Source: an uncultured Tateyamaria sp.
GTDB taxonomy: Bacteria > Pseudomonadota > Alphaproteobacteria > Rhodobacterales > Rhodobacteraceae
Length of the DNA stretch: 64,000 nucleotides
Reading direction: 5' to 3'
NCBI RefSeq assembly: GCF_947497045.1
Contig: NZ_CANMEU010000001.1
Coordinates: 558,001-622,000, forward strand
The notes beneath the pieces were generated by a model. It was not told the origin of the DNA. It saw only the letters and a list, made by a program, of their open reading frames with translations, and ran no database searches. The stretch's first letter is position 1. Each line of letters begins with the position of its first letter. The position numbers and the translations under genes are program-made. This document shows, piece after piece, positions 4,335 to 5,874 of the stretch.

Positions 4335-5874
4335 AATGGGCCTTCGCTTCGTAAAGGGTATCGACAGAAATTTCGCCCACACCACGCTCGGCGGCAAAAC
4401 TCTCAGTATTGCGGCGCGCCTTGCCACGGACAAAAAACGGGATCTTCTTCAACTCGCGCTCAGCCGCATCCAACCAGATGACATCGCCACTCTCTGACTT
4501 CTTTTGACCAGAAATACCGCGGGGGGTTTGGGGGGCTGGCCCCCCATCCGCGCTCGCTGCAGGCGCAGACCCACCATGATGAGACGCACCTGCCGCATCG
4601 TGAAACTCGAAATCATCACGGAACATGTGCAACAGATGCTCTTCCAACCCCATGACCAGCGGATGAACCCATGTATCAAACAACACATTCGCACCCTCGA
4701 TCCCCATCTGCGGGGAATAACGGGCGGGGAAATCCTGCACGTGCACGGGGGCCGAAATCACCGCGCAAGGGATGCCAAGGCGCTTGCCGATGTGGCGCTC
4801 CATCTGGGTGCCGAGGATCATTTCGGGCTGCAAGGCCTCGATCACCCGCTCGACCTCAAGGTAGTCGTCAGTGATGGTCGCAGCGATGCCGAAGTCCTTG
4901 GCCATGGCGCGCACGGGGCGGGCCAGTTCGCGATTGTAGCAGCCCATGCCAACGACCTCGAAACCCATCTCGTCACGCGCAACCCGGGCTGCGGCCATCA
5001 CATGGGTGCCATCGCCAAAGATGAACACACGCTTACCCGTCAGGTAGGTCGAGTCGACGGATTTTGAGTACCACGGCAGGCGCAAACGGGATGTATCGAG
5101 ATAGGCGTCGCGCCCCGTGATCCCGGCCACTTCGGCAACGAAATCCTGCGTGGCACCAACGCCGATCGGCACGACCTTGGTATAGGGTTGATCCAACTCC
5201 CGCGCCATCCAACGCGCAGCGCTTTCGCCTGTTTCGGGATACATCAACACGTTGAAATGCGCGGCCCCCATACGGGAAATGTCTTGGGGAGACGATGTCA
5301 TGGGGGCCACCACGTTTACGCTGATACCCATATCGGACAACAGCGTCGTAACTTCCTGAATGTCATCGCGATGGCGAAACCCGAGTGCAGTTGGCCCAAT
5401 CAGGTTGGCCGTGATCTGCTTGGTCCGCGCCATCGGCTTGGCGAGGGTTTTTACGATCTGAAAGAACGTCTCATCCGCGCCAAAGTTTTCCTTGCGCTGA
5501 TAGCTGGGCAGTTCCAGCGGGATCACAGGCACGGGCAAACCCATGGTTTCAGCCATGCCGCCGGGATCGTCCTGGATCAGCTCGGCTGTGCAGGACGCAC
5601 CGACGATGATCGCCTCGGGCCTGAACCGGTCGTAAGCGTCCTGAGCGGCGGATTTGAACAGGTTGGCTGTGTCCGCACCAAGGTCACGTGCCTGAAAGGT
5701 GGTGTAGGTCACCGGCGGGCGATGATCGCGCCGTTCGATCATCGTGAACAGCAGGTCCGCATACGTGTCGCCTTGAGGGGCGTGCAGCACATAGTGCAAC
5801 CCGGTCATGCCCGTCGCGACACGCATTGCGCCGACATGGGGTGGGCCTTCATATGTCCAGACCGTCAGCTTCAT
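4324..5874 (-). CDS. bchB: Light-independent protochlorophyllide reductase subunit BchB
   Basis: Catalytic-component subunit of dark protochlorophyllide reductase, 516 residues. Asp36 (APQGD), the unusual aspartate ligand of the NB 4Fe-4S cluster, and Cys95 (GASCTAE) are in the expected places. The C-terminal protochlorophyllide-reductase helical domain is at about 465-516 ([15 protein letters not shown]). Between the core and this domain lies a low-complexity linker encoded by a copy of the palindromic repeat (4499-4545), read as [15 protein letters not shown]. The start ATG overlaps the bchN stop as ATGA, so the two subunits are translationally coupled, which fits equimolar N2B2 assembly. 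Confidence 0.97.
4499..4545 (-). repeat. Palindromic repeat family, copy translated inside bchB
   Basis: On the minus strand it has a GGGGGG-CCAG-CCCCCC hairpin, then CCGCGGTATTTCTGGTCAAA. It matches the copy at 5887-5932 in inverted orientation (CCGCGGTATTT, GTCAAAAGAA, GGGCCAGCCCC). It lies in frame in the bchB linker and keeps the reading frame open. Confidence 0.75.

Follow-up and report, generated by a model that had tools for sequence, protein, structure and literature searches.

A REP-like repeat family of Roseobacteraceae whose tail may be kept uniform by a trans-acting factor, with one copy resident in the BchB linker

Rickettsia palindromic elements (RPE) are palindromic repeats whose copies are translated in frame, forming insertions in proteins that are normal in other respects. 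The DNA uptake sequences of Neisseria and the Pasteurellaceae come in dialects, lie near gene ends, and have lineage-specific spellings matched to the cell's own reader. According to PMC3733652, REPs are placed predominantly downstream of coding regions and sometimes inside ORFs, the REP that X. campestris has in recB differs from the one at roughly that position in X. oryzae, and RPE-1 is reported to interrupt a tRNA pseudouridine synthase gene. PMC12306157 distinguishes REPs from terminators by the absence of a T-rich tail.

We analysed a 64-kb stretch of Tateyamaria DNA (the window), in which bchB and bchN, encoding two subunits of DPOR, each contain one copy of a hairpin-bearing repeat. 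The features are as follows.

4324–5874, minus strand: bchB, DPOR subunit B (NCBIfam TIGR01278, 590.5 bits against a cut-off of 490.35)
4498–4545, minus strand: repeat element within bchB, identified from the sequence and translated as residues 444–459
4530–4545, minus strand: primary hairpin GGGGGG-CCAG-CCCCCC, identified from the sequence and from other copies of the same form
4521–4526, minus strand: second C-tract (CCCCCC), whose length tracks the hairpin C arm across copies
4498–4518, minus strand: tail, consisting of GGTATTT, the spacer CTG and the dialect GTCAAAAGAAG (class A of its own genome)
5871–7211, minus strand: bchN, DPOR subunit N (NCBIfam NF002768, 605.6 bits against a cut-off of 324)
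5887–5932, plus strand: second copy, opposite to bchN, whose reverse strand encodes the C-terminal tail of BchN (21 residues)

Read on the minus strand from 4545 to 4498, the bchB copy is GGGGGGCCAGCCCCCC-AAA-CCCCCC-GC-GGTATTT-CTG-GTCAAAAGAAG. It contributes 16 in-frame residues to the 516-residue BchB, between the catalytic core and a C-terminal domain to which the solved structure 2kru aligns (residues 463–514). In an AlphaFold model (34 sequences; mean pLDDT 72.8), residues 409–462 have pLDDT values below 50; the underlying alignment is shallow and other stretches also fall below 50, so that all the model conveys is the lack of a predicted fold for the linker. By reading of the letters, five of the six frames of the 48-letter element are open. 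In BchN, the last ~20 residues are encoded by the reversed copy, and two NCBIfam BchN models end at residues 423 and 425 of 446. An earlier sequence-only reading had proposed an in-frame hairpin element in the BchB linker and the same element, inverted, in bchN, and both proposals hold at these positions. It had also placed copies between genes; such copies exist, but elsewhere in the genome, and the window itself holds two tails only. Allowing up to three mismatches, the tails in bchB and bchN were the only two matches in the window, with no third found; 0.13 were expected, and none of 100 shuffles reached two. At the bchN-bchB junction of several species, the stop codon of bchN is followed by elements or by bare tails in a variety of dialects, and in L099, L115, L125 and L126 elements or tails at the junction extend BchN in frame.

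Genome-wide, we collected 95 copies from fetched loci and the window, using a pattern that allowed one substitution and hence missed rarer tails. In 67 copies the tail is GTCAAAAGAA or close to it (class A), and in 28 it is GCGAAAGGAA or close to it (class B). A loose pattern with up to two mismatches gave 104 matches in the genome, as compared to 10 for a reversed control. The mismatch classes are bimodal: among the matches listed, 89 had no mismatch and five had one, and the two-mismatch class comprises 10 matches by subtraction (six among the matches listed), the same number as the control total. Since nearly all matches have zero or one mismatch, and the two-mismatch class is at control level, we conclude that the family is real and that its tail is nearly invariant. 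The window shuffles and the reversed-control genome search led us to reject chance or low complexity as the source of the repeats. The suggestion of a REP-like palindromic repeat with many copies is thus borne out, copies being abundant (95, of which 87 are intergenic).

A typical copy consists of a GC hairpin that varies between copies, optionally a second hairpin, and then a second C-tract, TATTT, a free spacer of 2–3 nt and the near-fixed tail. One end of the element is a hairpin and the other a non-palindromic tail. Our parser read 68 of the 95 copies as a G/C hairpin plus second C-tract; the failures were 18 copies lacking a second C-tract by the parser's rule and nine lacking a hairpin. 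Among the 68 parsed copies, the length of the second C-tract correlates with that of the hairpin C arm (Spearman 0.91). The inner segment of the 46 long forms is for the most part a hairpin in its own right: its mean terminal stem is 3.6, compared with 1.7 in shuffles, and 32 of the 46 have at least four pairs. Short forms are mirror-like, e.g. GCCCCTTC-AAA-CTTCCCC. Hairpins differ between nearly all copies while the tail hardly varies: the 40-nt stretches upstream of the tail are distinct in 94 of 95 copies, and two tail spellings (spacer excluded) cover 88. Within the tail, base +7, and to a lesser extent +8, both in the spacer, vary between bases that are fixed on both sides. A recent burst of copying would not confine variation to these positions, and a base-specific constraint could.

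An intramolecular triplex (C+.G-C) fits these forms in part, given the match between C-tract and hairpin arm length and the mirror symmetry of the short forms; on the contrary side, it is the short forms that produce the agreement of the flanking bases, and the T/A flank type is unlike that of a classical triplex. We rejected a known RNA family: Rfam gave no match at gathering level in the window, and across 16 element loci its single weak match (E 0.58) was to a microRNA model. Likewise, a RAYT/REPtron as mobiliser was rejected: the genome, 99.91% complete, contains no match to the Y1 transposase domain (PF01797), which did match in five of 14 named control genomes. Within 70 nt upstream of the tail, on either strand, GTAG occurs in three of 95 copies (35 in shuffles) and CGTC in 43 (56 in shuffles), neither at a common offset. 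Some copies in relatives, e.g. in G001 and G166, have a CGTC string at the border of hairpin and tail. Pairs of copies lie tail to tail at L009, L049 and L076, with ~16 to 132 bp between the tails.

By the calls of our own gene caller, on which the intergenic and coding counts rest, 87 of the 95 copies are intergenic: 32 lie between convergent genes, 31 between tandem genes against the element, 20 between tandem genes with it, and four between divergent genes. Divergent gaps make up seven of the 22 window gaps of at least 40 bp, a small reference by which the rarity of the element there has p = 0.001. The tail faces a stop codon in 63 of the 87 intergenic copies, at a median distance of 10 bp; of these 63, 21 are no more than 3 bp and 37 no more than 12 bp away from the stop codon. 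Many copies have a T-rich TATTTTT after the hairpin. The placement downstream of genes, the scarcity of copies between divergent genes and this T-run would all be expected if the repeats were ordinary transcription terminators, or mRNA 3′-end hairpins, with a family-wide sequence habit. However, tandem pairs show no significant preference of orientation (31 versus 20, p = 0.16), and an intrinsic terminator needs neither a fixed tail of 10–12 nt beyond its T-run nor a genome-specific spelling. We regard the terminator explanation as very improbable.

The remaining eight copies overlap predicted genes. At least four are translated in frame (bchB, bchN, xdhA and xdhB), and two are end overlaps of 10–14 bp. 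The coding copies outside bchB and bchN are as follows.

L069:2624–4003 and L069:324–2627, both minus strand: xdhA and xdhB, respectively, each with a copy
xdhA residues 161–180: copy between the iron-sulphur part (match to 149) and the FAD part (match from 189)
xdhB residues 383–389: copy read as GISGQKK, in coding sequence
C-terminus of an FrhB-like protein: copy; the protein's match is below NCBIfam cut-offs
L016 ~1541 (C1:533720 of the own genome), just before bchY: copy in a doubtful N-terminal extension of bchY

The xdhA linker copy has co-located counterparts in G001 (L208) and G165 (L245), with the tail spelled otherwise. Within the photosynthesis cluster, bchY is a third nitrogenase-like gene; in G011 (L196) and G012 (L221), elements lie near its other end, and hence are not co-located with the copy here.

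The exact class A tail was found in one of the 149 same-family genomes searched, namely its own, and a tail within two mismatches of it in 18 of the 20 genus genomes, its own included. Among the matches listed, and excluding the own genome, four of five genus genomes spell the tail mostly TCAGAAGAAG or CCAGAAGAAG. The commonest tail in G011 is GAAGAAAAGAAG; spellings in further relatives include GCCAGAAGAAG (G012), ACGAAAGGAAG (G013), GGCGAGAGGAAG (G014), GAACAGGCGAAG (G015), AACATGGGAAG (G005), GAACCAGAGAAG (G004) and GACCCAAAGAAG (G006). These relatives were searched with fixed patterns, exact or nearly so, and copy counts there are lower bounds. Some genomes mix several spellings, most of all G001 with 20 copies; the mean pairwise distance over the 12 tail letters is 3.0 in G001, 2.5 in the own genome, whose tails fall into two classes, and 0.6 in G012. 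Of 56 genomes from outside the family, four had single, unrelated-looking matches to the loose pattern, and it had no match in one further same-family genome drawn with that set. Going by these spellings, we describe the tail as a genome-specific “dialect”, which we present as new; our searches of open-access literature gave no earlier description of the repeat family.

Copies were fetched with their 3-kb surroundings from six relatives and aligned with blastn, and were scored as co-located if within 200 bp. They represent 20 of 22 pattern matches in G001, six of seven in G012, two of 11 in G007, and all matches in G011 (20), G013 (12) and G165 (37). At 38 of these 97 loci the copy is co-located with one in the own genome (11 of 20 in G001, 5 of 20 in G011, 3 of 12 in G013, 1 of 6 in G012, which is the bchB copy, 0 of 2 in G007 and 18 of 37 in G165); chance coincidence would be ~2.3% per site for 95 copies on an assumed 4100 gene ends. 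Orientation is the same at 36 of the 38, including all 18 in G165; both opposite cases are among the three in G013. With the G012 site left unscored, 36 of 37 sites have a tail in the relative that is closer to another copy of that relative's genome than to the own-genome tail at the corresponding place, and one site is a tie (18 of 19 in G011, G001 and G013 together, which include the tie, and 18 of 18 in G165 by its listing). Rare spellings, not the commonest of their genome, occur at L179, L183, L203 and L211. At the 18 G165 sites, the tails here keep to the dialect of their genome (15 of class A, three of class B), and those of G165 differ by 1–4 letters and are G165 spellings, in a set of G165 copies chosen by similarity to tail A, which limits the spread of tails and leaves other G165 tails unseen. 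Exact tail A, which the search would have caught, is absent from G165. In G165, the CC class is found at six of the 15 sites that are class A here. A shared site often differs in the form of the hairpin and in the class of the tail (A/B), and in the G165 comparison the spacers of shared sites agree no better than they do after shuffling.

The main rival to the reading that we prefer is concerted evolution by copying alone, in which gene conversion or template switching via the GC tracts would rewrite elements in place with no reader involved. Such copying would account for sites in G165 that have all kept position and orientation, with a changed tail at every one and a changed hairpin at many, for the class switches at single sites, and for the coding copies, which often follow the dialect too. 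It sits poorly with the 94 distinct upstream stretches and with a spacer that varies between invariant bases, since conversion tracts would carry both along; moreover, the identical stretches here are short for homologous recombination. We consider copying by itself unlikely as a full explanation.

To follow the bchB copy, we compared 81 BchB genes, comprising that of the window and its 80 best relatives. Reading the DNA by eye, we found a linker element in 37, including the window, and scored 44 as lacking one, among them the possible decayed remnants L109, L110, L126, L138, L140 and L172. The 15–25 residue indel expected at the linker is blurred: linkers with the element are 43–64 aa long (median 49) and those without it 37–77 aa (median 45), with overlapping ranges. 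Of the two outcomes that would have counted against the earlier sequence-only reading, neither turned up: further genomic copies are plentiful, and the linker is not conserved among these 80 relatives, more distant phototrophs being represented by solved structures only. On a tree built without the linker, element presence requires 20 changes, eight of which are forced by well-supported branches; judged from this tree, therefore, the linker element is clustered, yet often gained or lost. In the well-supported clade of the window, 10 of 11 rows have a linker copy. A single ancestral gain in the linker with simple vertical descent was rejected, given the 20 changes (eight forced) and tails that ignore descent.

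The linker tail was compared by eye to the other tails of the same genome in 13 genomes. Agreement with the dialect, one letter being tolerated, is clear in seven (L097, L104, L107, L125, L134, L135, L163) and partial or weak in three (L114, which matches one of several spellings; L146; and L150, with one other copy). The linker tail of L139 is at odds with those of its genome; L099 and L122 are beyond judgement, with a tail type that the patterns do not reach and no copies found. The linker tail of the window agrees with the dialect of its own genome. Most Tateyamaria-type linkers share, by eye, a CCAG loop and a GGPAP frame. Of the 37 linker copies, 25 have a TATTT/TACTT core, and in 24 of these the next letter is C, as compared to 17 of the 95 own-genome copies. 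This C replaces Ile-Phe/Leu with Ile-Ser and breaks the T-run; either is a plausible reason for it. A broken T-run inside bchB would also be expected if the repeats were terminators.

Because many sites are shared with relatives and 10 of 11 rows of the clade are occupied, the bchB linker copy appears to be long established, and its tail is often spelled as elsewhere in the genome that carries it. The idea that a copy was kept as protein in a tolerant linker is supported by this comparison, in that the linkers of relatives vary and the AlphaFold model leaves the linker unfolded. Entry of a mobile element as a recent event, in contrast, is not supported, given the shared sites and the occupied clade, and the genome has no match to a RAYT-type domain. 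In a recurrent form of that proposal, mobile elements of REP/MITE type would have inserted independently at the same tolerant places. This would explain the patchy presence among BchB genes (a quick tree needs 20 changes or more, eight of them forced by well-supported branches), the different-dialect elements at the bchN end in different species, the two opposite-orientation pairs in G013, and the occupation of the same linker by an unrelated palindrome family: the L157 linker contains CCCGGGCTTGACCCGGG, with 49 pattern copies in that genome, and the L148 linker a variant of it, with six pattern matches in its genome. The common orientation at 36 of 38 co-located copies, the loop and frame shared by most Tateyamaria-type linkers, the lack of a Y1/RAYT transposase domain and the lack of a clean difference in linker length all argue against independent insertions, which we hold to be improbable.

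The reading that we prefer, and to which we give an even chance, is that of a REP-like family of Roseobacteraceae whose tail is kept uniform by a trans-acting factor and whose bchB copy is a tolerated resident. An invariant tail, a free spacer and a hairpin that is kept in structure and otherwise free indicate that constraint acts on the individual letters of the tail, and the genome-specific spelling at old sites indicates that this constraint changes in a coordinated way, for which a trans-acting reader would be the simplest cause. Such a factor, protein or RNA, would recognise the tail at the level of DNA or on both strands. A shift in the specificity of the reader, or an advantage of some new variant, would bring the new spelling to sites throughout the genome, by selection and with help from copying between sites. 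Copying probably contributes, since a single site can change its hairpin and its class at once. The bchB copy, an old resident, would owe its tolerance to the disorder of the linker and to the openness of five of the element's six frames. It would tend to be rewritten with the rest, and selection at the protein level or for anti-termination would act on the spacer, the sole free letters (almost every bchB copy with this core intact reads TATTTC). Because this copy tends to follow the dialect and has no obvious 3′-end role, it favours either copying or a reader that acts on DNA anywhere; a coding copy gains nothing from a 3′-end function, and its match to the dialect is more easily explained by copying. 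Against the preferred reading stand the shared sites at which hairpin and class often differ, which looks like replacement of whole elements and not like tuning site by site, the opposite orientation of two of the three G013 copies and, as regards uniformity, the several spellings among the 20 copies of G001 and the L139 linker. A more specific version, in which each genome has a putative reader of a hairpin-attached tag at about 100 gene ends and a shift in that reader rewrites the tag, enzyme genes included, we advance only tentatively, as somewhat less likely than not to be correct.

If this version is true, a stretch of the BchB protein changes because a code in non-coding DNA has changed. 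Coordinated change of a motif at many old, fixed sites would imply either a coevolving reader or strong copying in place, and either would be unusual for bacterial repeats of 50–100 nt. The bchB and xdhA copies show that a repeat can supply interdomain linkers, dragging protein sequence along.

The palindrome CCCGGxTCAAGxCCGGG of other Rhodobacterales, which we take to be perhaps a REP of CGTC type, occupies the same BchB linker (L157) and is unrelated in sequence to the family described here; its exact pattern has no match in the own genome. The family has the general marks of REPs, with many copies that share a consensus, a mostly extragenic location (87 of 95) and short palindromes. With the GTAG- and CGTC-tagged REPs, as characterised in PMC3733652, it shares short palindromes in many copies, a position downstream of genes in tandem and convergent gaps, and some copies in ORFs. 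It fits the REP definition of PMC12306157 in general, with many copies ambiguous as to a T-rich tail. Unlike the GTAG/CGTC REPs, it has no tag word at a fixed place and no RAYT (Y1) domain in the genome, and it has a long one-sided tail spelled in a genome-specific way and a C-tract repeated after the hairpin. In its coding habit the family resembles RPE, with in-frame copies in otherwise normal proteins (bchB, bchN, xdhA and xdhB), although most copies here are intergenic. It differs from DNA uptake sequences in its number of copies, ~95 rather than a thousand or more, and in the variable hairpins attached, and resembles them in lying close to gene ends and in having spellings that are related yet particular to each lineage.
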